64,000 nt of DNA from Trichoderma breve (lineage: Eukaryota > Ascomycota > Sordariomycetes > Hypocreales > Hypocreaceae). Both the position numbers and the translations under genes were made by a program. The notes under the pieces were generated by a model, which ran no database searches, was not told where the DNA came from, and saw only the letters and a program-made list of their open reading frames with translations. The stretch spans positions 1-64,000 of the forward strand of contig NC_079235.1 in assembly GCF_028502605.1 (NCBI RefSeq), given 5' to 3'. Positions 1 through 23,092 of this stretch are shown here, piece after piece (the stretch's first letter is position 1; the number at the start of each line of letters is the position of its first letter).

Positions 1-1047
1 TCAAAGTCTAGTAGACACTTACATATTTTTTATTACTTGTAGCCTTGGATCCGTTGCCGGCGGAGCAATTGTTGAACGATTCGGCTGGCGTTGGTTATAC
101 ATGGTTGTTTGCCCCAAGTTCCATCTCATTATGCGATTGAAAGCTGACCTGATTTGGTACACTTTCCAGATTCAAGTACCATTTTGCATCATCACCCTCA
201 TCATGGTTTACTTTTTCGTACCATCAAACACCGAAAACATGAGTGTAGAAGAAACAAACTTCCCATTAGACCTCAGACAGCTTCTTCATACATTTGACTG
301 GAAGGGCGCCTTGTTTCTTGTGAGCTTATCGATTGTTGGTTTTGTCTTTACGGTAACTAGCTAACGAGGAGCAGGTCCTAGTCTTGGGATTACTGATGTT
401 TGTCTTGGGAGTTGCAGGCAACGTTCTTCCCTGGACAAATCCATTCATACTACTGGCATCTGCACTGTTTCCTTTCATGGTGTACCTGCTTGCACGGGCT
501 GAAGTTGACGCTGCGAAACCTATCCTTCCACCCATACTCGCCGGATTTCCCTTCAGGAACATCATGATGAATGCCTTCCTCTTGTCCATGATCAATTACA
601 TTGTAAGTTGTATATACTTTATGAAAGAGAGCTGTCCGAGATTGACACCACTAATTTCTCACCTCTTGGCAGATAATGTATAATGCCACATTCTTCTTTC
701 AGAGTGTTCTGGTCGAATCTGCCACGTTGGCCAGCACTCACCTTGTCGTCCCTTCCATCGCATTCACATTGATCAGTGCCATTTCGGGAACAGCCATCGC
801 CAGATTGGAAACCCCTAAGCCAACCCTCCAGCTTAGCCAATTTCTTCTGCTCGGTGGTGCTGCCTGTCTCCTCCTCATGCCGACACTTCTACCGAGTCTC
901 CAAACCCCAGGTGTTGTATACGGCCTCTGCTTGGCAATGCCAATTCTGGGCGTTGGAATGATGGCACCAAGCGCCTTGCTTTTGCTGCTCGGTATGAGCA
1001 ACCGCGAAAATCACGCCACCATGAATGGCGCCGGACTGGGCCAGTAA
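1..1047 (+). CDS. MFS transporter, partial (5' end outside window, 3' end truncated)
   Basis: This is the middle of a multi-spanning drug/solute transporter of the 14-TM MFS type. Exons join cleanly: an acceptor near 42, an intron of about 110-172, an intron of about 320-374 (donor GTGAGC) and an intron of about 604-672. Hydrophobic helices run through the whole product, and a loop with GNVLPWTNP fits this family. The reading frame stops at 1045-1047, right after the conserved stretch SNRENHATMNGAG. In relatives this is followed by roughly a hundred more residues with the last helices. The last 37 nt overlap the convergent asparaginase gene on the other strand. The gene is therefore probably a broken remnant, although a donor-like GTAAGG at the stop leaves open an exon I cannot find. 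Confidence 0.7.
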
Positions 1048-2721
1048 GGGTCGATGTAAGATGAGGCCACCAATACGTCGCGGTAGCAGTAGCTTGAGCT
1101 CGGAGCCGACGATGACGGGGCTGACAGGGACAGGGGAGCAAGTTGCCGGCCCGCGAATAGCGACCAGCCTCCACTATGTAAGCCCATCCTTAGCGAAGCG
1201 TCCTTCTCCAGGGCTCGCTGGAACAGCTCCACAGCCCAGCGGATCTCGGCATCCCCAAGCAGCAACAGGCTGGCGTCCGCAACATCACCACCGTTGGTAG
1301 TACCAGTAGCCACGCGCTGCCGTATCGCCATGAATCCATCGCCAAATACTGTCTGGTAGTCTTCTGCTCTGTCTGTCTCGCTCTCGAATTCCCTTTTCGG
1401 CTCACCATCTTCGCCTATAGGGAACAAATGCCCCCCAGTGCAGCCAGCCCAGCTCACCATGGCCACGTCGGACGCTCCCGTGCTTTGAACAAGTGACTGG
1501 CAAATCCTTTTCAGTTTGCCAAAGAGCGCATACACCTGCTCTTCCGACATGTTGACCAGACTCAAATCTTGCTTGAGCTGGAATGTCAGCTGGTTCAGCC
1601 TCGTCGGATGCCTTGACACTCCCACTCGCATCAATTCGTCCTCGTAAAAACACAGAGGTGTTATAATTGGCATGGTGCAGGGTAGCAAACCGACATGGCT
1701 CGATCCCGACTTGCTGCCAGAGGACCCAATGTTGAAGATGCGGCTGTTGCATTGGGCCGTTTGTTGTCCATCAGCCGTAATAGCAATCACGCCGCACGAG
1801 ATGGTGGGAAACAGCTGTGAAGCATCCCGCATGGCCTGCTCAACTGCCTTGGCGATGGTGATGCCATTGCTGTACAGATTGGCGATGCGGCCTGCAAGCA
1901 TCGACGCCAGAATGGCCTCACCTCCGCCGCTGCTGTAATTGAACAACATGATTAGCAGAAATAACATTGGAAGGTACGAGCAAATAAAGCCATCATGTTT
2001 TGCGTACCAAGCTATAGCCACATTCTTGTCGGCATATAAACCAGAGCCCAACACTGCTGTATCTCCCACCCTCCCAACAGGTTTGAACATCATCCCGCCT
2101 GTTGAATTCGCTGCAGCAAGGTTGCCATGTACATCCAGCACCACCGCACCAACTGTGCCGTGCTCTGACATCTCGGCCTTCTTCTTATGCCAGTAGCTGG
2201 TTCGACTTTCGGTGGCAAAGTAGCTATTGGGCACTATTTCCAGTCCCAACTGCTTAGCTAGCTCATCGCCGCCAGAGCCAGCGATGAAGACGGGTGTGGT
2301 CGGCCCCGAGTTGTCCAGCATCGCTCTCGCCAGCTTAATTGGGTTTTTGGTCTCATGGAGGCATACAGCGGCACGGTATGCAGAGGTTGCGCCGTTAACA
2401 ATGCCTGCTTCTACCTACAACCCAGGTGGTCATGCTTGTTAACCAAGGATACAACAAACATTGAAGGAAGTCAAGTTGTACCTCAAAATTGCCATCAACA
2501 TTTACAGCAGCCCCCTTACCAGCGTTAAAGGCAGGATAGTCTTCCAGTTCCGCTACAACTTCTTCGGCCACGTCAACAGCGAGAGTCCCTTTTCCAAGTG
2601 ACGCCTCAGCCCTACTGACTAGGTCTTTAAGGAATGTATTCGTGGTGTGGTAGCTCTCCGCATTTCCTATCCACGATTCTGATGCTCCGCCATGGAGGAC
2701 AATTCCTCCACAAGCCAACAT
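1011..2721 (-). CDS. Isoaspartyl peptidase / L-asparaginase (Ntn-hydrolase, type 2)
   Basis: The enzyme hydrolyses asparagine or beta-aspartyl peptides after autocleavage before a threonine. Three exons fit: 2721-2482, 2414-2008 and 1932-1011, about 522 residues in all. The N-terminal half has the family block AFNAGKGAAVNVDG and then EAGIVNGATSAYRAAV. The catalytic region is GTVGAVVLD with the nucleophile Thr, followed by GSGLYAD. Splicing at 2007/1932 restores the family stretch NVAIACSGGGEAILAS. The first 420 or so residues look normal. The last 60 or so (Ser-rich, ending near 1011) do not resemble family C-termini, and the final dozen codons are simply antisense to the broken MFS gene. The tail may therefore be altered by a rearrangement. 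No signal peptide is evident, so a cytosolic role is likely. Confidence 0.85.
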
Positions 2722-3368
2722 GATTGATAAAAATGTTGATAATAATGGTTAATCTTTGCTTTTTTGGAGCGCGGGCCTGGATTTGAGCTTGTGTGATATT
2801 GGTCATAGACTATGTATTTTTTAAATAGCGTGTTGATGAATAAACACAAATCCAAGTTGTATCGTCAATTGACTAAAAATCGTCATATTGAAGGGATTCT
2901 GACTCTCAACTTCATACAAGCCCACGATGAGGTGTTAATCCACCGTTCTAGTTGTAGCCTTTTCGTCAGCCAAAGGTCGCTCGAGTAAATTCAAGGCTCT
3001 GCTTGAATACGTAATGTAAGGCCCCCAATTTAAGAAGGACTACTCTTAAGTTGGCCGTGCGTTGTGGTGGCAGGCCAGACTGTACTGGGGGCCTCACCTA
3101 AGCAGCCGCAGGAAGGTTGGTGGCATGCTCTAGCTACAGAGTACGAAGATGTGCCGTGAATCAAGAACAAACTTGTCGTCTATGGGGGCTTATGATATGG
3201 AAGTATTAATAGTCTGCTCTATCCTGCTTCCATCTGCCATTCTCATCCTCCTCATCCACCTCACACTCCTCATTTAATATACTCTACCAAAGAGCAGAAA
3301 CGTGTTCCTTACGTGACTCAATACCTTACAGTCCTGTTTATTTAAATAACCATCAAATTCATTTCAAA
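2722..3368. promoter_or_regulatory. Gene-free stretch; shared upstream region of asparaginase and repeat-peptide gene
   Basis: No convincing gene is seen. The two flanking genes are divergent, so this 647 bp holds both promoters. A pyrimidine-rich tract lies at about 3220-3280. An AT-rich TATA-like stretch (TTTATTTAAATA) lies about 30 bases before the ATG of the repeat-peptide gene at 3369. Confidence 0.45.
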
Positions 3369-4078
3369 ATGCGTTTCTCTACCATCCTCATTGCTGCCAC
3401 CGGCGCTGTTGCCGCTTCCCTTCCCGCTCGGGTAAGTCATTAACATGTGTACCACACCGAAAACAAAGGTCTAGCAGCAAGGCTTACTGATTATTCAAAG
3501 ACTGTCGAAAATGTCGCGAACGAGCTTGCCTGCGTTGCCCGCGGCGACATGGCCTGTGCCGGTCTTGTAGGCAAGCGCAGCGTCGATGAGATTGCCAATG
3601 AGCTCGCCTGCGTCGCCCGAGGTGACATGGCTTGTTCCGGTCTCGTCTCCAAGCGCGGCTCGGACTCCGTTGCTAACGAATTGGCTTGTGTCGCTCGTGG
3701 CGACATGGCATGCGCTGGCCTCGTTTCTAAGAAGCGTGCGACTGAGAATGCCGTCAATGAGCTCGCTTGCGTGGCTCGTGGCGATATGGCTTGTGCTGGC
3801 CTTGTTGGCAAGCGCTCCCCCGAGGAGATCAATGAACTCGCTTGCGTGGCTCGCGGCGACATGGCTTGCGCTGGCGTAAGTTGAAATCATTGACTCGAAT
3901 GAAGAATTGCTGTGCTCTAACGCCGAGATAGGCTGTTGCAAAGAAGAGATCTACTGCTGAGGTTGCGAACGAACTCGCTTGTGTTGCTCGCGGTGACATG
4001 GCCTGCTCGGGTGTAAGTAATATCACTCTTTTTTTGCCCAGAGCAGCATACTGAAAGACATTTTAGCTTGTTGCTTAA
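3369..4078 (+). CDS. Secreted Kex2-processed repeat precursor (KEP / RiPP-like) with six Cys-RGD-Cys cores
   Basis: Four exons (3369-3431, 3501-3875, 3932-4012, 4067-4078) give a 176-residue protein. Residues 1-17 form a signal peptide (MRFSTILIAATGAVAAS). Six tandem units follow, each with the core NELACVARGDMAC followed by A/S-G. Dibasic KR or KKR sites end the first five units at residues 46-47, 72-73, 98-100, 125-126 and 150-152. This is the layout of fungal Kex2-processed repeat proteins, which include alpha-pheromone and dikaritin (ustiloxin-type) precursors. After cleavage each peptide would carry two Cys seven residues apart around an RGD, likely a disulfide loop. It has no Tyr or Trp in the core and no neighbouring UstY (DUF3328) gene, so ustiloxin-type cyclisation is unlikely. 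It is not a typical alpha-pheromone, which has a Trp-Cys...Gly-Gln...Cys-Trp pattern. The target is unknown. Confidence 0.9.
3501..4012 (+). repeat. Six in-frame coding repeats of the core peptide
   Basis: Units of about 75-81 nt encode an identical 12-residue core (ELACVARGDMAC) while differing at many third codon positions. The spacers between cores (for example SVDEIA, GSDSVA, STAEVA) vary freely. The pattern shows protein-level conservation of the core, not a recent DNA duplication. Confidence 0.9.
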
Positions 4079-4647
4079 ACATTAGATGACTGTTTATACG
4101 ATAAAGAGTATAATCAAATGATGTTCAGCTTGTTTTGCATGGCTTATTTGTCTATGAGAGTCAGGGTTGTTAAGAAGAGGGTTGTTATGAGGAGAGCTGT
4201 TACATCCTTTGAAGACCCGGCTATGAATTATCTCGCCTAGGGTTATTAGAATATAATAGTTCTTTGCATGTCCACTTCGTTCTTCTAACTCTCAACTCCT
4301 GAGATTTACTCCAACATAATGATATCTGCTTTCTTGAGAAGAGCACCATACTTAAAGGGAGGGTATCTTCTGCCAAACATGTTTTTCACATCTAATCAAT
4401 GCTTCCGTGAAGGCTATGCGCAGAAATAGATCATGTAATATTAATCATGACGCCGACATTGCATTTATGGTTACGCGGCAGATTACAGGTAGGCAATAAA
4501 GAAAAAGGTAATTTGGCAGCAGCTGACGGTGAAATCCAAGGCCCATGTATTAACTTAATTTTTTGGTCTTTTGAATCTCATGCATAGTCTGGTAATCTGT
4601 GATCTTTTGTATCGCTGTCTTTCTTCCTAGGGAACCGGCTGGACCTC
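4079..4647. other. Gene-free stretch after the repeat-peptide gene
   Basis: AT-rich convergent 3' regions of the repeat-peptide gene and the C2H2 gene. I see no ORF with protein-like composition and no clear repeat. Confidence 0.4.
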
Positions 4648-8014: not shown

Positions 8015-9465
8015 TTATAATTTTGCATGGGATTCTTCAGTGGACGTTTTCTCAGCTAAAAGTTCTGAGAGTTCCCGTTCTTTACCAATCCGCCAGGTAA
8101 CTTTATTACCCCATCCCTTCCCTTTAGCTACCTTGTTCTCATTTGGTAAGCTTCGCCAGCGCCAGCGAGGAATACGCTGGGCCCCATCTTGAAAAAGCGA
8201 GATAACCCATTCTCCAACTATGGGCGTCATCTTGAATCCGTGCCCTGAGTCTCCCGCAAGAACGACAAGAGAGCCGTTCCAGCCGGGGACATAGTCAATA
8301 CAGAAGTCAGAGTCTGCGGTATCCGAGAACCAACACAACTTCTTATCTATGAACGGTCGATCTGCTAGCCATGGCAAAGTATTGCGAAGTAGCAATCTTA
8401 GCTTCTGCTCGTCTTCCTTCGGCATGAACTCGTTCAACAGGTGGTCAGCTGGTGGCAATGATACGCCATCAGCTCTAGTGTTGGTATACCCAGCACCGAG
8501 AGGACAAAGTTTCAGCAGGCGGGTAGCAGGGTCTGGTTCGAAAAAGAAGCCGAGATCTCGAACATTCACGACCGGAATACCTCGGAGTAGGTCTGCCTCG
8601 TCCGCATGAAGAAGAATGTGGCCAACAGACCAGCATCGAGCGGTAGTAAAACTTGCCAGTTCTGGAACTAAAGATGCTCCAAATGCCCCTAGGGCGAGGA
8701 TTGTTGTTACAGAACGGTGCACCTTACCATCGGACGTTCTCACCCCAATGCATCGCTGTTCTCGCGGGCCCGTGGCTTCGTGCAATATCTCGATAACATT
8801 TCCTCGCTGCTCGCCCGTGATGAATTTAACTCCAGCCCGGGCACAGCGAAGAAACATTGCGCGGATAACGTCTCCCGAGTGTGCGTAACCTGCTATGCGA
8901 TTGAGGTAGCCTTTGAAGCCCAGCATCGGGCCCGAGAGCTGCCACGCACTGCGACGGAAGTCTGCCGGACTGTTCAGGGAGGATATTTCATTCGAAAATA
9001 GCGGATGGCTTTCCACTACCTGTAAAGACTTTTCGAGAGTTTCCGCTACTTTTGGGGGAGCTTGAGGCGACCTAGCGACGATGTAACCTGTTTGATGGTA
9101 GTGAGGAGCGAAGAGCGGCTGGCGCCAGCCATTTTCAATGGCTTTCTGTGCTTGTTTGTCAGTAGTTGATCGGAAGCCAAGATTGGAGGAGATTCAGTGT
9201 GACTGAGGTTGCAACTCACCAGCGTAAGGTCACGATAGAAAGGATCTTCGTATTCAGCTCGGATGATCTTATTGATATCGTTGGCAGCAGAGTACCGAGA
9301 GGGAATCTCATCACCCCTTTCTAGGACAGTGACATCTGTATAACCATCTCGTAAAAGATGTAAAGCTGTGGAAAGCCCAAAAGCTCCCGCGCCAACAATT
9401 ATTACAGAGTCATGTTTTGATGGTTGACGCCATTCCGCGGCTTGTGGCGCTTGAGGGGTAGCCAT
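8015..9465 (-). CDS. FAD-dependent amine/amino-acid oxidase (fructosyl-amino-acid or saccharopine oxidase type), peroxisomal
   Basis: Two exons (9465-9220 and 9145-8015, 74-nt intron) give about 458 residues. The N-terminal FAD-binding fold is VIIVGAGAFGLSTALHLL, with the acidic end of strand two at VLERGDEIP. Then comes the DAO-family stretch SSRY-like SRYSAANDINKIIRAEYEDP. The C-terminal part has CWFSDTADSDFCIDYVPG and AGDSGHGFKMTPIVGE, matching the sarcosine/fructosyl-amine oxidase family. The protein ends in AKL, a type-1 peroxisomal targeting signal, fitting an H2O2-producing oxidase. The true substrate (fructosyl amino acids, saccharopine, sarcosine or pipecolate-like) cannot be told from sequence alone. 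Confidence 0.88.
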
Positions 9466-10401
9466 AGGGAGGACAGTCAGGTGGAAGTCTTCACAGTGTA
9501 CTATTACAATAAAGGATATGCCAGGCCATAATCAGAGCGTTCGGCAGAGGACGAGTTCGCATTTATATACCAAATTAGTCACAATAAAGACATGCAATCC
9601 GGGAGTAGAAATTCGACTCAATCGTGGGCCAATATGAGAGTTTCCACTCAAACAGGCTAAAGAGGTCAAGCAACAGAAAAGCAGAATACGGACATACACT
9701 AAAATGGATGATGCTCGACAGATGATCAGTTATGTTTGGACCAAGGCTTCATAGAAAATTGGAGAGAAGGCGCTGCGCACTGCCGATTGGTCCAATTACC
9801 CGCAAGCCTCGTTAGTGCTGATGCTAGTGCCCTGATCGCTGGAGAGCAGGAGTGTTGCGAAATTGCAACACACGATGCCTATTGGAAGCCAACATAAAGA
9901 AAGCTCAAGGATATTATGAGAAATCCGATCTTGTTTTGTAGTTGTATCGGGGGCTTTCTATTAATTTTGTTTCGGTAGAATGAGGGCCCGCGGGGCGGTA
10001 GATTTACTGTAATCCTTATACTGGTATGGTACAAGGATTTGTTGCGGGTTAGGCCAATCAATCGCAGGTGTACTCCATAGCAATGATTGTAGAGGAGCAA
10101 GTTGCTCTACGAAGACCAGGTGATAATATAATAATATCTGCTTCATTAACAGGTGGGAAGGCATCTTTAAGCTGATTATCCTAAAGCTCAAAGGATATTT
10201 TCCTCGTGTATTTACTCCATATTTGATGTTTCATTTTACACGGCTAGGCTAGTTTCAGCTTGGTTAATATAAGTTGGGCGAGAAAATACACTTCATTCAA
10301 GATTGCCCATTGGAAGGTCTTTCTTTAATAACTAAAAAATCCCTATAATGCCTAAATCCATTAACTTTCACGAAACAATATTTGGAAAATCATTTCCAAA
10401 A
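9466..10401. other. Gene-free stretch between FAD oxidase and OPT gene
   Basis: About 940 bp of AT-rich sequence. I see nothing coding. It includes the FAD oxidase promoter and the 3' flank of the OPT gene. Confidence 0.35.
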
Positions 10402-13061
10402 TCATTTCCAAGAGCCTTCAGGCGGACCAAATGTTTCCCCAGATGCAACCTTCTTCAAGACATTTTGGCCAGAATTATAGTCCAGCGTCTGACTGGTAAT
10501 AGTGTTACCCCACCAGTTCGGAGGGCTTGTCTTGGTCAGATTAAGAGTAAGAAAGATCAGGATGCTGCAGAGTGCGAGTCCCACATCCAAGCCAGCGGAT
10601 GTAATGTAATTATAGCGAGCCCACCACCCTTGGTGCCGGTTTTTGATGACATAGGCGAAAAGAAAACCAACTATGGCCCAGCTGAGGTAGTTCAAGGGAG
10701 TAGCAGGCGGGATCCAACCGCAGCCCGCGAAAATCACAGGCGCCATAATGTATCTAATCTGCGAGCGTGGATAATTGCGGACTAGGAGGTAGAGAGTGAC
10801 GGGAAGGATAGCACCCGCCAAGAAGAACCAATAGAGACTGCTATAGAGCTGCCCTGGTGAAAAGATGCGAGCGGGACCGATTAAACCCCATATGACGGAA
10901 TTGGAGAAAAAGACGCGACCGCCAGGGCATGTAAAGTTATTGGATTGCTCAGGGGAGCATATGTCCTCGATCGAGCTGAATGCCCAGTTCATGACCGCAA
11001 TCTGCACAATCCCCGACCACAACGTTGCCACAACTTGTGACCAGAAGAGGGTGCAAGGTGGTACCTTCATGTAGTGCCCGAGCTTGAGGTCCTGAGCAAA
11101 ACTGAGGGCTTGGTACATGGTCATGTATCCATATGTTTTGAAGAGCATCATGGCCATCGGTCGTCCGGGGTAGATGTAGCCGACGATAAATTCAGTGAGG
11201 ACGTTAAGTCCAAGCCTGATGTCAATCATTGGCATTAGCCGTGTGGCTCGCGCTTACTACAGCCGTATTGGGAAGAGGGGAGGGAAGGGATCGGTTTACG
11301 GAGAGGAGGGTTTGACGTACTGCACGTTGGTCATCGCATGAACCATACCCATTGGAATAGTCCATACCAATGGTATAATAAAGGCGACAGTAAGGACCCA
11401 CCAAGGCATTTTGGTATCCCAAGCGTATAGGAGACCAAACGACAAAGCTAGCATAACGGCAGATAGAGTAGCATACCACCAGTCCGGTGCATCCGGATAT
11501 TTTTTCATCAGTCGCATATGCACATCATCTTCTTGCCTCCGAGCTAGCTTTGCCCGTAGCCAGATCTCAGAACCATGGAATAAACCGGTGTTGATCAAGA
11601 CTGAGATGACCATAGCGAATGAGACGCCGAATGAGAGTACTCAGGTCGTAGGGAGGAAAAGAGGCGAGTAAGCCTTGTATGCGTCTATATTTAAGGTGAT
11701 ATCGGGATTGAGGACCCGAGACACGTTATAAACTTTGCCAGTGTTATCGTATACACTGGAAGTTCCCATCGGAATGTACTTGGCGTACGAAACTCCAGAA
11801 AAATGTACCGCGATGGCAGTTATCCAGAAGAAGACAACAACGCCAACCAATGTATTTGCAATAGCGTACCTAATGAAATCAGCGTCTACTAGTAATGTGA
11901 CTGGATCTCTGTGAGTGCCTCATAAAGAGGCTGCATTAACACTTACCACGGCGGAATGAGGGGACTCAGCACATAGGCCGAGACAACAGTCCAATCCAAC
12001 GTCAGGGGTATCAGCGAAATTCCGCTGATTCCTCCAAATAGTTGGTTGACCACTGGGTCGTTCGGCTTGATCCATGTAACGAACGCGAAAACGCTCAGAC
12101 CTTCAAAGAGAAATCCGGGTACCCAGTACCAGACGAAGGAGCCCACGGCTACGTAGATAAAATACCGATAGCGGCCGACAGACCATTCATCGCTCTGTGA
12201 GGTATCCTCAGGCGCGTGGTCGTGAAGGGTGTACATTAGGGAAGTAGAAACCAGGTTAGAGGGCCAAATCATGGCTGCTGGCCAGCTTTGCGAGGTCAGC
12301 GTTACAATGATACGTCGAATTGGGCTTGAAGCGATTAGAAGTTCAAGCACTTACACAAGAAAGCGTCGACTTATTCCAGCTATACCGTAACCAATCATAG
12401 TCGAAGTCCACGTAAGGAGAAGTTGGAATCCCCATCCAAAGGACTGTCCATAAAACTTCTGCTGAGCTGTAAGGACATCGGTTGAATAAGCCGCCCCGAT
12501 ACCAAACCCAGCATTTGCCATCACGGTGACTACCACGTGCTCTTTCACATTAAAGGGCCCGGGATTGAGAGACCAACGGACTCCGAATGTCATGAATATT
12601 CGCTGGGGCATTGTAAGGGACCACAGGCGGCCGATGGGGTAAGCGAGAAACTGCGCGACGATAGTAGAAATCGATATTGCAGGCGACCGCAGGTGAAAGA
12701 GCATGTTCATTCCGCCACATATGGTGACAAGGAATAGACCAATCGCCCACGCACGAATGGTATTTGCTGGCATTTCCTCATCGTAATTGCGGACGGCTGC
12801 CTGGACTTCTGGGAATGGAGACGCGTCGACGCCAATCTTTTCAGATAATGGCACGTCGTTGCCGGGCTCACCATTCGAACGTTCAATCTCCTCAACCTTA
12901 GCTTTGCGAATATAATGATCTCCTACATTTTTTCCAAGATTGACAACAGTATCGTGCAATTCCTCTTCGAGATCGGCCTTGGACTCAATCTCATTTATTC
13001 GGGGGACATCGCTAATCATAGCCCCATCGATAGGAGTTATTTGACGAGCGGAGGGTGCCAT
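10402..13061 (-). pseudogene. OPT-family oligopeptide transporter with an in-frame TGA
   Basis: Four exons (13061-12355, 12285-11947, 11869-11321, 11215-10402) join in phase. They restore family blocks across each junction: RRFLVWPAAMIWPSNLV, LIPPWYAIANTLVG, and MTNVQLGLNVLTEFIVGY. The product would be 802 residues with many membrane helices, and it ends in the usual FGPPEGSW-type tail. It imports small peptides across the plasma membrane. Codon 425 is TGA (11643-11641), between YSPLFLPTT and VLSFGVSFA, where relatives have one residue. No intron boundary is possible there, since both sides are contiguous and in frame. Either it is a recent pseudogene, or the stop is a sequencing error or is read through. 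Everything else looks intact. Confidence 0.85.
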
Positions 13062-13454
13062 GGCAAAAGTAGAAACGAATGCACCGTTTGAATAGCCAGC
13101 ATATTCGAGAGCAACCGATGCATATCTAAGTGACTTATTTTATACATGAACGAATGGTGATTTCGATATGTTGCTGTTGAGTTTGATCCCGGGTATTCCG
13201 ACATGTAGATAGCAAGCACGTTGCTCATTCGCTAGAATATCCTAGCGTGAATGTAATCCCCCGCGATCCAGGAAGCTGAGCCAATGCTAGTTGTGCTAGC
13301 GCGCATGGTAGTTCCACTGTCGATTGGCATTTCTCCTCATCTTTTCCCCCGTACGAGATGTGAATTCCATTTTTCTATCAAAACCTCTGAGGCAGTAAGG
13401 TATGAATGGCTCTTACGTATATCTTGCCACACGGCTCAAGACAATATTGCGATT
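13062..13454. promoter_or_regulatory. Divergent promoter region, OPT gene / Zn2Cys6 regulator
   Basis: Gene-free 393 bp between two divergent genes. No operator motif stands out by eye. The layout suggests that the regulator could control the OPT gene. Confidence 0.3.
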
Positions 13455-15646
13455 ATGTCACAACCTAGCAAGAAGAGGTCCAAGAATGGTGAGCATTTAC
13501 GCTAATTCGAAGACGGCAGGCATACACGGCTAACACATGCATATTGGCTAGGATGCTGCGCCTGTAGAGAGAGACGAATTAAATGTGATGAAGGGTTACC
13601 AGCGTGTGGGCGGTGTACACGCTTAAGCTTGAATTGTTGTAAACCAGAACCATCAATCCCCCTTAGGCTCCGGCGACGTGGTTATGGCTCTATCAAGTCG
13701 CGAAATACCTGGGAGCCTCCGAACATTTTGCCGAATGTACAGCAGCAAAGTCCAAGTTCGCCTCTCAGTTCTCCAGCTCCCGAAGGAGACGGTGTCCCAC
13801 TGTCAGATGCCGGCTCGTCAATGAGCCGCGAGGATCAAGGCTTCTCTACAGCCAGCCGCGGTGCTTCTTCAGTCTCCCTGGTTACACCTGTGGTGATTGA
13901 GGATGCGTTATCCACCACACCAAGACCTCTATCCAGTGAAGCAATCACTGAGCCGCAGCAAGAGGCATATATGTTACTATCGCCTTCATGTGCTCGGTCC
14001 CATGTGCTACTGGATAATACTTTCGATATAATCCTTCCCGACAACGGCATGGAGGAGACATCTTGGCTTGGCGACAGTGATTTATGGGAACCGACTCTCC
14101 CTCCATTCCCTGCCGTCATTACAGGGACACCGAATATCCCTTCACAATCTCAGTGGATTGGGTGTATCAGCACTTTAGCCACTCCTGCATTTCAAGAAGG
14201 CATGACTGCCGCAGACTCGAATTCATCCACTTGGCCACATTCCATACAAGTATCCTCTGACCTACATCATCTCTCTTCGCCGAGATTATCTTTGCATTTT
14301 GACTTACCAGATGCTCTCAACCTCGACAATTACGAAAAGAGAGCGTTAGAATACTACCAGGGTCAATACACAGACTTACGTAGCGTAAAAGGATTTTCCT
14401 GGTCGGCTTATTCCATATTTCTTACTATTGCCTTGAAGGAAGAGGTGGTCCTTCGCTTGATGCTGGCTGTCTCACTACAAGGCATATCCCATCACAGTCA
14501 CGACAAAGGCATTTCGCTATCAAGTAAAGCGAACCTCAACAAGGGGCTGAAACTCCTACACCGAATTCTTCTACAGGAGCATCCTAACCACCTTGTTGTG
14601 ATGGTCTCATTCTGGCTGCTCATACTATGCACAATGGATAACGCTGCCTCTTCAACAGGACTGCAGAGGCGAGATCTCAATGCAAAGATCCACAATTATG
14701 TTATCACGCATCGCCTCTACGATCGGTGCAGTTCTGCTGCCGAAGACCATGTTGTGGAACCGAATAAAATCTTCAATAATGAGACAGCCTTTCATAGTCT
14801 CATCTACAAACTCCTTGGAATGCTCATCTATGCCGATGTGCAACTAAACTTCGTCTCACATGGGGGTAAACTCTCTGATCTTCTTCTCGAGGGTGACTGT
14901 ATGCGGCGCATACGACAAATATCTCGAAACTACCTATATCTCAATCATGGCGACAGATATCCGTCTTCAGAGCTCACTTACGATATAGAAAGTGTCGAGT
15001 GCTATGACGTATATCATGAGCAGCACAGGTTGTACCACCTGCTTAATCAACTGTTCTGGTTTGGGATGGGTAATTATCAAAGCATCCAAAGCGAGATTGA
15101 CACACTGGAAACAGTAAGTTCTACTTCGACAAATGAGTAGAGTATTACTGTTTGGGAGCTAAATACTGATTTCATCTCTCTTGGGGAGAGGTATAGAAAT
15201 ATAGCTCTTTTTTCCGCATAGCACATTGTGACACAATCGACGGGAGGTATCCGCGGATCCGTTTCCAGATTGATGCCGCGGTATGCGAATTTTATGCTAT
15301 TCGTTTGTATCACTTCCGCTGCCAGGACGTGCCGTCGCCTGATATCCGTATTCAAGATTCTGTTTCATCATTCCTGCAGATTGCACATCGCCTCCAGCGC
15401 ATGAAGGCCCGCTACAGCTGGTTTGACCGATCTCTTTTCCTCGTTGGTATTGAAACGCGTGATGCCATCCACAGGGATTGGATACAGGGACGGATGATTC
15501 GGGCTGACTTGATCCGAGCCTTGTCTAGGGTTTGGGAGGGCGAGAAGATGTATGGGCGGCGACTTAGCAAGGAGCAGATGCGGGTTATCCTGCGAGGAGA
15601 AGGGGTGCTGCATGATTCCGCTACAGTAGCATCAGCTTGGCAATAG
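13455..15646 (+). CDS. Zn2Cys6 transcription factor
   Basis: Three exons (13455-13488, 13552-15113, 15197-15646) give about 681 residues. The first intron falls just before the zinc cluster, which reads CCACRERRIKC then DEGLPACGRCTRLSLNC: Cx2Cx6Cx6Cx2Cx6C. It is followed by a Ser/Pro-rich linker and a long helical region typical of the fungal-specific regulator domain (around residues 250-650, with ALEYYQGQYTDLR). Splicing at 15113/15197 joins DTLET to KYSSFFRIAHC and keeps the frame to the end. It lies next to and divergent from the OPT transporter, a plausible target. Confidence 0.85.
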
Positions 15647-16026
15647 TTTTGTTCTAGGTTCCTGCTAAATGTCAAACACGTCCATCGATTGGTGATACGG
15701 ATTATTTGCTAGCCTTTCACTCCTCTTCCACATAGTTCATTTCTGAAGTTCAATTGGCCAGATTATCCATGACCGTGTTTAAATAAGTGTCTGTCTCCTG
15801 GGTATACGGGTTTGATGAAGTGGGATATTGTCGTTCAACTTGTTTCCAGCGGAACAATGCGATTGGCCAAAATATCCGCACTCACATCTCCTCTACTACA
15901 TAAAAGAGACAGCCTGGGGAATTACACCAGCTGTATCCCTATACATCGCTACTTTTCAGAATAACAGTAAATCTGAAGACCTAAGGCACCCTTTACGTTC
16001 GCTTCCTAGTATAAGTTACTCACAAG
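15647..16026. other. Gene-free stretch
   Basis: 380 bp upstream of the S9 peptidase gene. No gene or clear motif is seen. Confidence 0.3.
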
Positions 16027-18111
16027 ATGACTTTACGGACACTGGAGAATGGCGAGAGAGGCCAAAATAGTTGTGGTGTTCGAAATCATGACTATCCGCT
16101 TGCCGAGGTGCCCGATATTGCTGATTCGCAAATTTGGAAGCAAGTTGAAGGATTCTTCACCAAAGTCCATGCCCCGTCATTTGGCCAGCTGAGCAACGCC
16201 GAGGACTTGGCTGTATCGCCTGACGGCACAAGACTCGCATTTACTGGGTACATCTGGAGCTCGCTGAAGGACGGTCCCAAAGCACATGTTTACATTGTTG
16301 ATCTACCCGCAGGATCAAGCATGTCAGCAGATCCTGTGCCTATGGCTGTTTCTCATGGCCCGCATAACAACAAGAAACCCAAGTGGTCTCCCGACGGGAA
16401 GATGCTGGTCTTCCTATCAGACAGAATTCGAGCAGGGCAATATCAATTGTTCTACTTGAGATCCGATAGACTTGGAGAAGCGCAGCCCTTGGTCTCGGAA
16501 CCTCTCCAAGGCATCATCGAAGATTTTTCTTGGTCGCATGATGGTAGCAAAATACTTATAGGTCTCGCGGCGTTCGGTCTGCCCAAATCTGGCTTCGAAG
16601 GTTCTGGAACGCTCGTTGACCTGGATGTCCCTCGATCACAATGGACCCCGATTGTGAAAACAGACCATGCTGCGATGGATGTCCGCAGTCTTTGGCTCCA
16701 TGATTTACAAAGCCATCAGACGCGCCGGATTAGCCTCCCTGGAAGAAACATTTGGCGGTTCGCTTGGTGCGGTCCGCAGGATGCGGTTGCCATTGTCAGT
16801 GATCGACCTGGCGAAGGAGCGTACAAGGAATCTTCTCTTGTCAAAATATCACTCTCGAATTGCGTGGAACGTGTTATGGTTGAAAGAGGGGAATACTTTA
16901 TGGCGCAGCCAACTGCTTCACCTTCGGGTTCGAAAGTTGCTTTTGTTGAATCCGTCGGTGGGGACCGCACCAAGCTTGCTGGCTGTATCGTCTGCGTCGA
17001 TAGCAAGACCAATAAGCAGACGCGAATCGCCTCCAATGTCGACATTTCAAGTCTTGAGTGGTTCAATGAAGAGACTTTGTTTAGTATGGGCTTGAGAGAC
17101 CTCACATCGGTGGCTCTTAAGGTTGACGTGCTCACCCATGAGGTACGTGAGCTTTGGTCGACAGGCAATGCTTGTGGCCCTTCTTACCCTCAGCCAGCCG
17201 GCCTCCCTGGCGGAGGATTCGCTGTAGTTAGACAGGGCTGGGAGTTACAGCCGGAAATTGGATTGGTTAGCGAGGCCGGCGCATATACCCGAATACTCTC
17301 TTTCGAAGACGATGGTGGACGCTGGCTTCGGCCCCAGCTGGGCCAGAGCCACGCAGTCTCTTGGGAGTCTACAGACGGCTTAAAAATCCAGGGGTTCCTA
17401 TACCTCCCTCCCAAAGGACAGAAACCATACCCTCTGATTCTCAATGTTCATGGAGGTCCCATGAGCGCCTTTATTGACCAGTGGATGGGATATCGAACTT
17501 GGGTAGCCTTTTTAGTAGCTCAAGGATATGCGGTCCTCAACGCGAATCCTCGAGGCTCCCTTGGACGAGGTCGAAAGTTTACACAGGGCGTGGTAGGGGA
17601 CGTTGGGGGCGGTGATGCAACCGATCTCCTGAAAGGGCTTGACTATCTTGTCAGTTCTGGTGTTGCAGATGCCTCCCGATTGGGTGTCATTGGGGGTAGC
17701 TACGGTGGCTTTCAGTCAGCTTGGCTGACCACTTTGACAAACAGGTTCGCCGCCGCAATTCCTATTTCTCCTGTTAGCGACTGGAACTTGCAGTGGTTGT
17801 CCAGCGACCTTCGCCAGCGGACTCTGGACAATCGTCCTTACAATATAGAGAGTTTGTATTTTCGTCGAAGCCCACTGAGATATGTCCACCGTTGCAAGAC
17901 GCCAACGCTGCAACTAGTGGGAAAGGTAGACCAGTGCACTCCACCTGCCCAGGCACATTACTATCATACTGCGCTTCTGGATCATGGAGTTAAATCATGT
18001 ATTGTGGAATATCCGAAAGAGGGCCATGGCATTCGCCAATTTCCCGCTTTAATAGATGCTTGTTGCAGAATGATTAGCTGGTTTGGCCATTTTATGCCAG
18101 TAGATAAATAA
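16027..18111 (+). CDS. S9-family serine peptidase (prolyl oligopeptidase / acylaminoacyl-peptidase type)
   Basis: A single exon gives 694 residues. The N-terminal half has repeated propeller-like strands (AVSPDGTRLAFTG, PKWSPDGKMLVFLSD, FSWSHDGSKILIG). The C-terminal half is an alpha/beta-hydrolase with LILNVHGGP, the nucleophile motif GGSYGG (Ser558), Asp635 in GKVDQCTPP and His667 in EGHGI. It has no signal peptide, so it probably acts in the cytosol, cleaving short peptides with N-terminal acyl groups or proline. The start is the first ATG of the open frame, and the first 40 or so residues are weakly conserved, so a later start is possible. It fits with the peptide transporter and asparaginase nearby. 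Confidence 0.9.
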   Translation: MTLRTLENGERGQNSCGVRNHDYPLAEVPDIADSQIWKQVEGFFTKVHAPSFGQLSNAEDLAVSPDGTRLAFTGYIWSSLKDGPKAHVYIVDLPAGSSMSADPVPMAVSHGPHNNKKPKWSPDGKMLVFLSDRIRAGQYQLFYLRSDRLGEAQPLVSEPLQGIIEDFSWSHDGSKILIGLAAFGLPKSGFEGSGTLVDLDVPRSQWTPIVKTDHAAMDVRSLWLHDLQSHQTRRISLPGRNIWRFAWCGPQDAVAIVSDRPGEGAYKESSLVKISLSNCVERVMVERGEYFMAQPTASPSGSKVAFVESVGGDRTKLAGCIVCVDSKTNKQTRIASNVDISSLEWFNEETLFSMGLRDLTSVALKVDVLTHEVRELWSTGNACGPSYPQPAGLPGGGFAVVRQGWELQPEIGLVSEAGAYTRILSFEDDGGRWLRPQLGQSHAVSWESTDGLKIQGFLYLPPKGQKPYPLILNVHGGPMSAFIDQWMGYRTWVAFLVAQGYAVLNANPRGSLGRGRKFTQGVVGDVGGGDATDLLKGLDYLVSSGVADASRLGVIGGSYGGFQSAWLTTLTNRFAAAIPISPVSDWNLQWLSSDLRQRTLDNRPYNIESLYFRRSPLRYVHRCKTPTLQLVGKVDQCTPPAQAHYYHTALLDHGVKSCIVEYPKEGHGIRQFPALIDACCRMISWFGHFMPVDK

Positions 18112-18800
18112 ACTCAGTAATACAATTGATTTTTTATTTAATTGTACTTGATGTAAATTAATACGCCAGTGTTACATACCTGTTGAGAACTTTTTAAACA
18201 AACAAGACCCGCGATACAATGCCTGTCAGCACTACAGTGAGTTACTTCTAACGAACCATGTACAATATTCCAGCAGAGACTCAATTGATATATACATGTA
18301 CGCCCATATGCCCCTTACTATCAAGGCCATAATGGATCTTTGAGATCCTCTAAAAGCCTTTAGCGCAAATTCCGCTTGCTACAAGATAATTCTCAGGTAC
18401 GCGCGCAACAGCTGGTTGGCAGGGAGCTACGACAACATTCATAGTATATACTTTTTAGTAGCAAGGCTACAGGTACAGTAGACTTATCTGCAGCTGAGAA
18501 GTAACAACCCTGTCAAATAACACAGTCCATCTTGCTCTGCTAGATTATTATTGTATGACTTCGCCGAATGATGCTTTTGTGCTGCTGACATAATGCATAT
18601 ACAAATGCAGAAATCACTAATAATGAGCACGCAATCCGTTTCGCATATATTCCACTTTTGTCCTCTTACACACCACTCGATTTCTTGCCCTCCATTGAAG
18701 CCCTAGGTCTATCGACCAATACCTCACAATTTAATGCTTGCGACGATTTGGGGTTGAGCCAAGTAGAGTTTCCGTGAATATATCTCGAAGGTAGTTGAAC
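18112..18800. other. Gene-free stretch
   Basis: About 690 bp, AT-rich. No gene is seen. It contains the 3' flank of the S9 peptidase and the promoter of the dehydrogenase. Confidence 0.3.
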
Positions 18801-20085
18801 ATGGCCCCTACTGCAAATAGAACCCTCGACGGCCACAAGCTACTGGTCCTCCTAGGAGTAACAGGACCGCCAAAGTCGCTACTTGGCACGGAGTTCCGAC
18901 TCGAGTGGATAGCAGAGCTTAAAGAGCTGTTTCCTGGCCTGGAAATCGTCACTGTCAGAGACACAACATGGAATACGCCATCATTCCAGAAGAAATTCCC
19001 CAACGAAGAGTGGAAGGATGTCACTATCCTCGTCACCGGGAGTGCATTACCAACAGCGGACATTGCTCCAAAGCTGGAGTATGTGCAGCTGCAGAGTGCT
19101 GGTGCAAACCATGTTCTCGACCACCCTCTGATACGAGAAACAAATGTCGCTCTCTGTACAGCTAGTGGTGTGCATGGGTACGAACCTCCAAGATTTAAAT
19201 GAGTGAATCTGACATGCTGACTCGTCGTGAAGACCACAGATAGCTGAGTGGGTAGTAACAACATTTTTAGCCTTCCAACATCAAAGTCAAAAGTATAACA
19301 ACTCCATAAATTGGGAATAATGTCTAACTTGATTTCGTAGTTACTCGATACGTTGATATCCAGCGCCAAAGCCGGTGGCAGAAGTTGGCAGAGCCCGTGA
19401 ATGACGCAGTTCAACAGCGAGTGTAAGCTGAATCTGATCACCTAAGTGACAACATGAGATACAGTGAGTCTAATAAGTTCTCAGTGGCATTCTTGGGTAC
19501 GGCGCCGTCGGTCGCCAGGTAGCTCGAGTCTTGAAAGCATTAGGCATGGATGTCTACGTGTGTACTTTGCACCCGCGTCTCTCGCCTGAGTCGCGCAGAG
19601 ATGAGACTTATACGCCAGCAGGCCTCGGTGACCCTGAAGGCATCTTGCCTAGCAAATGGTTCTCGGCTGGGGATACTGAAGGCTTACATGAGTTTCTGAG
19701 CTCCGGCCTCGATCTACTTGTCATTACTCTTCCACTGACACGGAACACACGGGGTCTCATCTCACGAAACGAATTAGCTTTCCTTGCTAAACAGAAGACA
19801 TTTGTTTCAAATGTCGGCCGGGGAGAGATCATCAAAACAGATGACTTGATTGACGCGCTTGAAGACGGCGTAATCCGCGGAGCTGCACTTGATGTGACAG
19901 ATCCTGAACCATTGCCAGATGGCCACCGCTTGTGGAGCACGAAGAATCTGTTCATTTCACCGCACGTCAGTGGAGATTCTAGCGCTTACGCTCAAAGGAT
20001 ATATGAGGTTCTCAAGTATAACCTCATTCGACTTAGTGAAGGAAGAGAGCTCACGAATAAAGTGAACAGAAATGAAGGATATTAA
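18801..20085 (+). CDS. D-isomer-specific 2-hydroxyacid dehydrogenase
   Basis: An NAD(P)-dependent oxidoreductase that interconverts 2-keto acids and D-2-hydroxy acids. Exon 1 is 18801-19177. Splicing to 19233 restores ASGVHGPQIAEWVVTTFLAF. A third exon, with RYVDIQRQSRWQKLAEP, starts near 19342, but its exact acceptor is unclear to me. The last exon starts near 19485 with GILGYGAVGRQVARVLKALG, the GxGxxG dinucleotide fold. Catalytic residues are visible: Arg in NVGRGE, Glu in DVTDPEPLP and His in SPHVSGD. It may act in one pathway with the dioxygenase and the cyclodeaminase-like enzyme that follow. Confidence 0.85.
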
Positions 20086-20850
20086 AGAGCTCTATGCGAT
20101 ACTTGCCAAGTCCATCACTTCCTTATGTATATATCGGACATCAGCTTTTTCTATAGCCGACGTTATGCTGTTCACTATTGAAAACAAAACGTACTTCGAT
20201 CAGCTAGCGCAGCCTTTTTATGAGGCTGAATCCCGGGCTACCTATCCCGATAACTGAGGACTTGACAACAATCAAGCTCTTTCGAGAAGCAAACTACTGT
20301 ACTCTGGTTAAGAAGATTGTTGAGGCAAGCTTCAAGACGGGAGCCATAAACTACGGTGATGGATCGATTACAAAATAGGAAGATGATAGCCTGCGCTGTT
20401 CATGAGTAAACAATAAAAGCTCTACTGAACAGTAGTTTCTGGAGTAAATCTTCAACTGATAGCATTATATTAAGCCGTTGACAGAGCCTGCTGCACTGCA
20501 CGCACTTGTTCAATAGCCTTGCTAAAATAGCTCCGGTGGAGATTGATCGTTTCGGGTATGTTGATTTTGCCGTTTGAGTAAGCATGCAGAATACTGGTGT
20601 GGGCTTCAGATCGCGTGCGTGCTTGAACCAAAGAGTGGCGTGATAGACACTAACCATGATCTACAGGTGAAGATGGAATCTTTCTGATTTGTCCGTTATC
20701 GGCGAGAAGATGTGGATATACGTCTACTCGCAAATGTAACATACCGACATCACGATAAATCGAGACTAACAGTCTGGTTGTGGCCCAAGTCTTACTGCTG
20801 GTCCTCCTGTAAAAGACAAACCCTAGCCAATTGAGAACAACATTGCTTTC
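20086..20850. other. Gene-free stretch
   Basis: 765 bp with short open frames only. None has domain-like composition. It includes the promoter of the dioxygenase. Confidence 0.3.
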
Positions 20851-21924
20851 ATGATGGCAGCAGCTAGCATTGCGAGACCTCTACACATATCAGGTAAGCC
20901 ACTGGATGAACCGATTGAATCGGCATCGCAGGAAAAGCCAATTGCTTTTGATCCGCTCCAGCATCTATGCTACAATCGACCCTCTTCAACAATCAGCCTT
21001 CATGACCTTGGCCTCGATTTCCCAGAAGCCAGCTCACAAACGGCCATCACTGCACCATTCCCACTCTTAACTCCCTCTGGTGTTCGTGAGCTTCGTGCCG
21101 ACATCTTTCGCCCCGACATTGTTGGCAAATATGGCTCGTGGAAATATCCTGGCGTCTATCGCATCCGCGGATATGGGCCGGCCGCACCGTTTGCCTACTC
21201 CATGTGGCGAAGTCCCGAGATGCTGAAAGCTTGTTCTGACGCGGCTGGTGTGGACTTGGACATTATCATGGACTATGAAATTGGGCAGCTTAACGTTCAA
21301 CTGCCAAAACATGTCGACAAGAATGGTGCAATCACAGACAATCTACCCCCACCAGAGCCGCCAAAAGCGAGCAGCGACGATGTTGAACCAGATGAAGACG
21401 GTGCGGATCTCAAAGACCTTGTTTCGGCATGGCATCGCGACTCGTATCCGTGGGTATGCGTGCTAATGCTCTCTGATCCGGTCGGCATGTCGGGCGGCGA
21501 GACAGCCTTGCGCAAAGGCGATGGAGGCATCCTAAAGATGAGGCAGCCAGGCATGGGATATGCTGTCATGATGCAGGGGAGCATGGTCAAGCACGCTGCA
21601 CTGCGGACACTCGGCAGCGGCGAGCGCATCACCTTTGTCGTCTCGATGCGTCCACGGGATCCGATGCTGCGAGACACCAGCACGTTGCGCACCGTCAAGC
21701 CGATCAGCAATAACGACGAGCTTTTTCGACAGTGGGCGGACTATCGGCTGAATGTTGTAGCTCAGCGTCTGGCTAAGATGCGTGATACCTTGCAGGCCGA
21801 AGGAAGGCCAGCTGCTGAGACGCACCGGCTAACGAAGGAATGGGTTCAACAGCAGCTTGAGTATCTACAGACAACAGTGGATGAGATGGATCTAAGTGAT
21901 TATATAGCCCCGAATTTTAAATAG
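20851..21924 (+). CDS. 2-oxoglutarate/Fe(II)-dependent dioxygenase-like protein
   Basis: A single exon gives 357 residues. The iron-binding triad is plausible: His and Asp in AWHRDSYPW (around residues 195-197) and the distal His in GSMVKHAAL (around 250). Arg in GERITFVVSMRPR would bind 2-oxoglutarate. Between them lies the strand VCVLMLSD...GGETAL, typical of small-molecule hydroxylases. No signal peptide is seen. It converges with the cyclodeaminase-like gene, only 151 bp away. The substrate is unknown; given the neighbours, an amino acid or cyclic amine is a reasonable guess. Confidence 0.8.
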   Translation: MMAAASIARPLHISGKPLDEPIESASQEKPIAFDPLQHLCYNRPSSTISLHDLGLDFPEASSQTAITAPFPLLTPSGVRELRADIFRPDIVGKYGSWKYPGVYRIRGYGPAAPFAYSMWRSPEMLKACSDAAGVDLDIIMDYEIGQLNVQLPKHVDKNGAITDNLPPPEPPKASSDDVEPDEDGADLKDLVSAWHRDSYPWVCVLMLSDPVGMSGGETALRKGDGGILKMRQPGMGYAVMMQGSMVKHAALRTLGSGERITFVVSMRPRDPMLRDTSTLRTVKPISNNDELFRQWADYRLNVVAQRLAKMRDTLQAEGRPAAETHRLTKEWVQQQLEYLQTTVDEMDLSDYIAPNFK

Positions 21925-22075
21925 CATGCATAGGAGTATCACGATGCGAGGCAAAGCTTCATATTTACGGCAAGTTTGTGCTGGATATGGGCAATGTGAT
22001 GTAGTGAAAATTGTGTGTTGGAAAATTTGACCATCAGTTTCTACTCGGGTTTTTTTATGTATATGGCACTTTGCT

Positions 22076-23092
22076 TTAGGCATATCTCAATCGTTGTCCA
22101 ACGTCAAGCTTCGCCGCCTTGTCCAAAATGGCTGTTCCGAGCGCAATATCGCTAAGACTTAGTCCACGATGCCAGAACAATATCGTTTCGTCGTCGCTCT
22201 CTCTGCCCTTTTTCAAGCCCGCCACGATCTGGCCCATCTCCGCATGGAGATTCTCTTCTGTCAGCTTGTCGTTGTCCACATGCTGCCGCAAGGCCCCTAG
22301 TGGCAGACCCTTGCGACACTGGCCCCAGTCGTCGACGATCATTTTGTCCATAATGTCTGTCAGTGAAAGCTCCAGGGCACTCATTGTGCCATAGGGCATC
22401 ACCAGCGCACCCTTCTTTATCCAGCTTGTCTTCAGCAAAGGTTCGGGTGCTGGCAACCGTGACGCTTCAACGATAATGTCTGCTCCTACAATGGTCTCTT
22501 CCCAGTTATCCAGCACGCGGATTGGCCTCCCTAGCTCCTTTTCCAGTCTCGCACCCAGAGCTTCACGACTCTCTTTGCGCTTGGAATGGATGCGAATCTC
22601 ATCAAATTGGAAGAGACTGGCTAGTAGACGGATGTTCCAGTAGGAGCTGCCACGGGCGCCAATATGTCCCAAGATTTTAGGCTTACTGGGTGCCAGATAC
22701 TTTGCTCCCAGGGCTGTAACTGCGCCAGTGCGCATGTCCGTAATAGATGTCGCATCTATAACTGCCTTGGGCACGCCGGTGTCTGGGTCGAACAAGTTCA
22801 AGATACCAAACTCGGAGGGTAATCCGTGCTTGTAATTGTCAACAAAATCCCCGACAACCTTGACGCCTGCCGCATTAAGCGGATGAACGACGCCGCGTAG
22901 AACGTTGAAGTGGCCTTTGGCTGAATCGCGCGGCACAAGATGCACTCGTGGTTCAATGACTGCTTGCTTGCGTCCCTGCGCATCAAGCGCCTTCTCAACG
23001 GCCTCTAGTATCTCCGAATCAGTAAGCTCTAGTGCCGCAATATCTAGGCCATTGAGGTATGTGATATGAATGGGCTCTGTCGTCGCGACCAT
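22076..23092 (-). CDS. Ornithine cyclodeaminase / mu-crystallin family enzyme
   Basis: The open frame begins at 23146, but the first 18 residues are a hydrophobic stretch unlike the family. MVATTEPIHITYLNG at 23092 is the better start, giving about 338 residues. The Rossmann fold is ILGHIGARGSSYWNIRLLASL, preceded by DMRTGAVTALGAKYLAP, which is the family's substrate and cofactor region. Members make cyclic imino acids (proline-type) from diamino acids, or reduce ketimines with NAD(P)H. The function may be ketimine reductase or opine-like. It converges with the dioxygenase gene. Confidence 0.88.
   Translation of the reverse strand: MVATTEPIHITYLNGLDIAALELTDSEILEAVEKALDAQGRKQAVIEPRVHLVPRDSAKGHFNVLRGVVHPLNAAGVKVVGDFVDNYKHGLPSEFGILNLFDPDTGVPKAVIDATSITDMRTGAVTALGAKYLAPSKPKILGHIGARGSSYWNIRLLASLFQFDEIRIHSKRKESREALGARLEKELGRPIRVLDNWEETIVGADIIVEASRLPAPEPLLKTSWIKKGALVMPYGTMSALELSLTDIMDKMIVDDWGQCRKGLPLGALRQHVDNDKLTEENLHAEMGQIVAGLKKGRESDDETILFWHRGLSLSDIALGTAILDKAAKLDVGQRLRYA

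Follow-up and report, generated by a model that had tools for sequence, protein, structure and literature searches.

A probable KEX2-processed repeat protein gene of Trichoderma breve with six copies of a constant two-cysteine core

The window analysed here, the first 64 kb of contig C4 of the Trichoderma breve genome, contains a four-exon gene at positions 3369-4078 of the plus strand, with its ATG at 3369, its TAA ending at 4078 and a predicted product of 176 residues. The start and end given in the initial annotation are exact, and the four exons join in one open frame in the spliced translation. A divergent Asparaginase_2 gene is found about 0.6 kb upstream, and 5' of this gene a stretch which by eye resembles a membrane transporter runs off the contig. 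By eye, positions 1-900 of the window show no telomere repeat. One Cel7A exon of the genome aligns over 233 residues with the PDB entries 2yok and 2y9n, which are from T. harzianum, with five differences, one of them at the edge of the exon; the next sequences had a clearly lower score (463.9 bits compared with 527.9), and 1cel is the T. reesei enzyme. This match places the genome in or near the Harzianum group, and a 5.8S rRNA search gave no match. The gene and its nearest neighbours consist of the following features.

approximately 1011..2748, minus strand: Asparaginase_2 gene, divergent
3369..3431, plus strand: exon 1, start codon and signal-peptide-like N-terminus MRFSTILIAATGAVAAS, followed by LPAR
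3432..3500, plus strand: intron 1, 69 nt, GTAAGT..AAG, with a branch-like CTGAT
3501..3875, plus strand: exon 2, the first four units and the greater part of the fifth
3876..3931, plus strand: intron 2, 56 nt, GTAAGT..TAG, with a branch-like CTAAC, immediately 3' of the Gly codon of unit 5
3932..4012, plus strand: exon 3, 81 nt or 27 codons, one unit in length, starting past the Gly of unit 5 and ending with that of unit 6
4013..4066, plus strand: intron 3, 54 nt, at the position in unit 6 which intron 2 has in unit 5
4067..4078, plus strand: exon 4, LVA and stop codon
4648..5421, downstream and convergent: ORF with C2H2-like fingers (by eye), without a Pfam family at 0.001

The N-terminus of the precursor was judged by eye to resemble a signal peptide. 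All three introns start with GTAAGT, end with AG and have a branch-like CTGA or CTAA site beginning 14-16 bases before the 3' end. According to conceptual translation, retention of intron 1 would shorten the protein to 24 residues, and retention of intron 2 would result in a five-unit form ending in MACAGVS, an end which also fits the pattern of the units. The matching places of introns 2 and 3 in units 5 and 6 suggest duplication of an exon; the sequences of the two introns show no likeness beyond that of shuffled sequences (849 of 1000 shuffles scored as high). Coding on the minus strand, where two long open frames are present, was considered and dropped because the residues vary in those frames.

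The core ELACVARGDMAC is present in all six units, at a spacing of 25-27 residues, and five separators of the Kex2 type, in the order KR, KR, KKR, KR and KKR, lie between them, in agreement with the initial annotation. The positions of the cores are from the spliced translation.

3522..3557, plus strand: core ELACVARGDMAC of unit 1; the unit is (A)SLPARTVENVANELACVARGDMACAGLVG, then KR
3573..3578, plus strand: Kex2-type site 1, KR
3600..3635, plus strand: core of unit 2; the unit is SVDEIANELACVARGDMACSGLVS, then KR
3651..3656, plus strand: Kex2-type site 2, KR
3678..3713, plus strand: core of unit 3; the unit is GSDSVANELACVARGDMACAGLVS, then KKR
3729..3737, plus strand: Kex2-type site 3, KKR
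3759..3794, plus strand: core of unit 4; the unit is ATENAVNELACVARGDMACAGLVG, then KR
3810..3815, plus strand: Kex2-type site 4, KR
3834..3869, plus strand: core of unit 5; the unit is SPEEINELACVARGDMACAGAVA, then KKR
3941..3949, plus strand: Kex2-type site 5, KKR
3971..4006, plus strand: core of unit 6; the unit is STAEVANELACVARGDMACSGLVA, then the stop codon

The constant stretch consists of 13 residues, NELACVARGDMAC, and is thus one residue longer than ELACVARGDMAC; the Gly two residues past the last Cys is also invariant in the six units. The units differ in their N-terminal 4-6 residues and at A/S and L/A positions, so that the six identical peptides initially proposed would instead be six related peptides with a constant core. 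Predicted peptides bounded by dibasic sites on both sides, or by a dibasic site and the stop codon, have 23-24 residues. For SVDEIANELACVARGDMACSGLVS the computed oxidised mass is 2407.082, and the reduced form would be heavier by 2.016. No dibasic site is present between the signal peptide and unit 1 in the translated precursor. Unit 6 has no KR and ends with SGLVA at the stop codon, and the other five units, without their KR or KKR, end with AGLVG, SGLVS, AGLVS, AGLVG and AGAVA. The five sites are followed by SV, GS, AT, SP and ST. The net charge of the units is -2 to -3, and F, W, Y and H are absent from all six, which bears out the earlier remark that aromatic residues for ustiloxin-type cyclisation are missing.

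In pairwise comparison of the copies (15 pairs), third codon positions of the core differ at a mean of 0.549. At second positions there is no difference, and first positions differ at 0.026, only between TTG and CTN codons for Leu. Twelve of the 13 codons vary; the minimum number of nucleotide changes is 17, of which 16 fall at third positions, and no residue is changed. The comparison of synonymous and non-synonymous change suggested in the initial annotation gave a mean pS of 0.82 and a mean pN of 0.011 for the six copies of the core, the latter value arising from intermediate steps counted between TTG and CTN leucine codons, so that the divergence of the core is purely synonymous. In the flanks, pN was 0.53 in the four codons 5' of the core and 0.15 in the four codons 3' of it. 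The computed probability that a random change in the core codons is synonymous was about 0.22, and the pattern therefore goes beyond unconstrained drift. When the core was read in all six frames, frame 0 of the plus strand alone was constant (identity 1.00), the next being a frame of the minus strand (0.87). Because the high pS of the core is found without residue change, as against the pN of the preceding codons, constraint acts on the core and not on the spacer, as had been proposed from the divergence of third positions with fixed residues, and the units are old and without recent homogenisation. The repeat exceeds chance: in one unspliced ORF the commonest seven-residue word occurred five times in 3001-4500, whereas no such word came up more than once in any of 500 second-order Markov sequences or elsewhere in the window.

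KEX2-processed repeat proteins (KEPs) have been defined by at least three similar fragments between KR, RR or KK sites and by repeats covering more than 15 % of the protein (PMC6339444). Members of the class also have an N-terminal signal peptide and lack a membrane domain; for the present protein the start MRFSTILIAATGAVAAS was judged by eye. Our own detector of dibasic fragments called six of the six fragments of the spliced protein alike, and an own-genome profile search found a kexin P-domain gene (P_proprotein) at C2:5855657-5855987 with two exon matches, both of which agree with the Kex2-type repeat precursor originally proposed. As in the KEPs described (PMC6339444, PMC7329392), the product has a start which by eye is signal-peptide-like, near-identical units, KR or KKR between all of them and a small size. 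It is probable, on balance, that the gene encodes a KEP whose secreted and trimmed peptides, unmodified except for a single disulfide, act extracellularly as a ligand.

The route which we infer consists of secretion, cleavage, trimming, disulfide formation and action as a ligand. The signal peptide would bring the chain into the secretory pathway, kexin would cut 3' of each KR or KKR, and a Kex1-like carboxypeptidase would strip the basic residues; such trimming is supported by unit 6, which has no KR and ends as the other units would after removal of theirs. Five peptides of 23-24 residues would be exported together with a somewhat longer first one, on which a few extra residues would remain once the signal peptide is removed. 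Their form would be 4-6 variable residues, then NELACVARGDMAC, then (A/S)G(L/A)V(G/S/A). One disulfide would most likely close over the seven residues VARGDMA and place R-G-D where a small hairpin turns. The unmodified peptide would work outside the cell, either as a signal within the species or in contact with a partner, host or competitor. A signalling or interaction role is favoured because all 13 residues of the core are fixed and its flanks drift, and a cationic, membrane-active role is disfavoured because the peptides are acidic. Harzianum-group Trichoderma are used in biocontrol. We regard as rather doubtful, and put forward only tentatively, the further idea that the CVARGDMAC helical hairpin, made in six copies per precursor, represents a new class of fungal peptide hormone with a receptor of its own, in Trichoderma or in a fungus or plant which it meets.

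A single unit was modelled with AlphaFold2 as one 30-residue stretch, with an alignment of the six units, two of which were cut at introns. The five models had pLDDT values of 62.7-73.5, and the best of them (mean pLDDT 73.5) contained a helix at residues 2-14, a turn at G15-D16 and a second helix at 17-23. The variable N-terminal residues often follow S/T-x-x-E, by eye a helix-capping pattern, which is clear in units 2, 5 and 6. The segment of the first helix is amphipathic, with a hydrophobic moment above that of shuffled sequences in four of the six units (p ≤ 0.022; the remaining units had p values of 0.069 and 0.175). When exon 2 (125 residues) was modelled, the result was beta strands along the whole stretch, as a beta-solenoid with a pLDDT of 87.4 in one of the five models and with values of 44-48 in the other four. 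Beta-solenoids that AlphaFold2 predicts with confidence for perfect repeats have been described as unrealistic artefacts (PMC11795689). Since the solenoid with high pLDDT appeared in only one of five models and is of this known artefact type, we lean, with only moderate confidence, towards a single-unit fold predicted to be a hairpin whose two Cys are bonded to each other.

A protein search, which among fungi covered the own genome, found only the gene itself, as three exon matches, and the suggestion of a new peptide family is unsupported as it was worded, since a family needs relatives. The pattern C-x2-[R/S]-G-[D/E/H/Q]-x2-C had 63 forward and 61 reverse matches in the genome; the reversed control gave 39 and 49. 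Among the pattern matches listed, six were the studied gene, and none of eight other loci chosen for RGD, RGE or RGQ coded for a repeat precursor when read in the matching frame. One of these eight, at about 259 kb on C4, does contain another KEP, in a frame other than the matching one. No relative was found in viral and prokaryote contigs, as is expected of a fungal gene, and a PDB sequence search gave no match at E values up to 1. The Pfam family V4R (PF02830) scored 34 bits for the whole protein, against a cut-off of 31, over five stretches; it was rejected as a repeat artefact because the best stretch covered only positions 30-57 of the 62 in the profile. Five further Pfam families were all below their own cut-offs, and three NCBIfam families, searched with exon 2 only, were far below the cut-off.

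Six overlapping strings of the core were absent from the texts of the papers searched, and the core may well be catalogued in supplementary tables of individual KEPs. It is not among the motifs named in a section of PMC6339444 that is limited to peptides found in four or more species and in more than one genus, and by that paper's own account its set held too few mycoparasites. The main text of a paper on Trichoderma RiPPs (PMC7099791) contains neither an RGD nor an ELAC string. KEP-derived peptides have been reported from mushrooms, and knockouts of kep genes in Coprinopsis were without phenotype (PMC9769878). Thousands of KEPs have been listed (7878, of which 2560 are without homologues) and few of them have a function (PMC7329392). 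The gene described here, known from its sequence, would add an unusual core to this known kind, and a clean core under visible purifying selection could provide a handle on what a KEP that is neither pheromone nor dikaritin precursor does.

Dikaritin precursors, such as those of ustiloxin, phomopsin and asperipin, and pheromone precursors are also secreted repeat proteins with Kex2 sites, and other genes of these kinds were found in the genome. A UstYa profile search of nine contigs (38,549,885 bases) gave 46 exon-level matches, which were grouped by eye into 18 places. The detector was applied at 16 of these. At eight it covered both flanks (about 9 kb each) and at a ninth a single flank; at C4:255.5-259 kb it was run on the surrounding 12 kb or so, and at the remaining six on a short locus of 3.3-3.7 kb. 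Repeat ORFs were flagged beside five UstYa places, all of them with Y or W in the unit:

C4, approximately 258,997-259,522: four units of the GGGCGYY type (GGGCGYYGKR), signal-peptide-like start by eye
C6, approximately 3,312,980-3,313,580: DTVVPDKQHYDKR-type units, 13 of 13 fragments, beside a UstYa gene
C2, approximately 7,095,416-7,095,820: AGDEAWKEANLGKR-type units, 7 of 8 fragments, beside a UstYa gene
C2, approximately 4,239,400: TDGVASYEWKK-type units, beside a UstYa gene
C6, approximately 3,200,800: AGWGKR units (GDTSVDLADNEAGWGKR/GTAVDPTNNQAGWGRR), signal-peptide-like start by eye, beside a UstYa gene

The dikaritin-like precursor on C4 is about 3 kb from the UstYa gene at C4:255,564-256,109, on the same contig as the studied gene. 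The ORF at about 3,313 kb on C6 has a signal-peptide-like stretch upstream in another frame (by eye). The detector also picked out the studied gene and, on C7, an alpha-pheromone precursor. Five more frames which it flagged, two at 7095 kb on C2, one at 4239 kb on C2 and two on C7, were overlapping or shadow frames. The precursor on C7 (1,121,672-1,122,655) is of the Trichoderma type, with five WC-x6-CW repeats; these include four different sequences, compared with the identical copies reported for PPG1 of T. reesei (PMC3068285). The genome thus appears to make both dikaritin-like and pheromone-type precursors, and the gene in the window would resemble neither, being set apart by units without F, W, Y and H.

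As a dikaritin-type RiPP precursor, the product would have its cores excised and cyclised by oxidases of the UstYa (DUF3328) family. The architecture of the precursor is shared with dikaritins, and KEP-like repeats are found near at least five of the 18 UstYa places in this genome. Tyr is present in 65.6 % of the repeat sequences linked to DUF3328 genes (PMC7329392), and since about one third are without it, the missing Tyr alone would be no bar. We looked for a UstYa/DUF3328 gene within about 15 genes, for which the downstream side is readable. The 46 matches all lie outside the window, and on this contig C4:255,564 is the closest of them; the upstream flank ends with the contig after 3.4 kb, beyond which a modification gene might lie. 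In the same survey, 22 % of the KEPs had DUF3328 genes nearby, on average 3.09 genes away, and of seven abundant linked types four have Y, two are di-histidine and one has W with P (PMC7329392), none of which is found here: no core offers a cyclisable aromatic residue or His, in contrast to the Y or W in all five repeat ORFs beside UstYa genes. A dikaritin is accordingly the kind of product to which we give hardly any credence. A second sexual pheromone of the alpha type, seen by a Ste2-like receptor, is very unlikely. It would account for the two-Cys peptide repeated between Kex2-type sites and for its central Gly, features shared with the ppg1 precursors of Trichoderma (PMC3068285), and here the Gly is followed by Asp; in the repeats on C7 it is followed by Glu in two of five and by Met in three. 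However, the units have no Trp and have seven residues instead of six between the Cys (CX7C), so that the consensus WCXXGXXCW (PMC3068285) is not found in them, and the dipeptides after the five KR or KKR sites include one XP and no run of the XA/XP kind cut by Ste13. T. reesei has a single alpha-type gene (PMC3068285), and in T. breve such a gene is already present on C7. A mating role is disfavoured by these three points, the consensus, the Ste13 runs and the gene elsewhere. HPP1 of Trichoderma also has repeats and Kex2 sites, but its (LI)GC(TS)VM motifs and C-terminal CAAX (PMC3068285) are both absent from the present protein, which ends with SGLVA.

Three further alternatives concern the secreted product itself. 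The Rep1 repellents of Ustilago are amphipathic peptides which assemble on hyphae. Rep1 is mentioned in PMC6339444, and by analogy the units might be structural surface peptides, for which the amphipathic segment of the first helix, the Ala/Val-rich composition and a multi-copy production suited to bulk supply could speak. The units are, however, short and acidic, and a 13-residue core without any variation is stricter than bulk structural use would seem to require; we consider a surface role unlikely. That the chain remains uncut, as a secreted tandem-repeat protein in which KR is a mere part of the linker, is quite unlikely. The solenoid model would fit such a protein, but it was one model of five and of an artefact type, KR or KKR is found at every boundary between units, and the last unit, without KR, ends exactly where trimming would leave the others. 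For mimicry of RGD-mediated adhesion, with an integrin-like protein of a partner organism as target, the chance is very small. The RGD triplet is indeed kept in all six copies, as initially noted, and is predicted to lie at the turn between the two Cys, but it is conserved no better than its neighbours (13 of 13 residues constant), so that the data do not single it out. A motif of three letters picked out afterwards carries little weight, which leaves the host interaction that was read from it a guess. A search for RGD together with Kex2 repeats gave, among the matches listed (titles and starts of abstracts), no paper on such a peptide. An unmodified, disulfide-closed KEP peptide acting as a ligand is the reading which we prefer.

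The neighbours of the gene were scanned with Pfam in 19 of the 41 listed ORFs and in one shorter piece, up to 40.1 kb, and no sign of a modification cluster around the gene was seen among them. Further downstream the scan found an FAD oxidoreductase, an OPT oligopeptide transporter, Zn-cluster regulators, an S9 peptidase, a 2-hydroxyacid dehydrogenase and an ornithine cyclodeaminase, and also SnoaL, RTA1, P450, short-chain dehydrogenase and NmrA families. The FAD oxidoreductase, the oligopeptide transporter, a Zn-cluster regulator, the S9 peptidase, the 2-hydroxyacid dehydrogenase and the ornithine cyclodeaminase are clustered at 8015-23155 of the window and perhaps form a cluster for the breakdown of peptides or amino acids.
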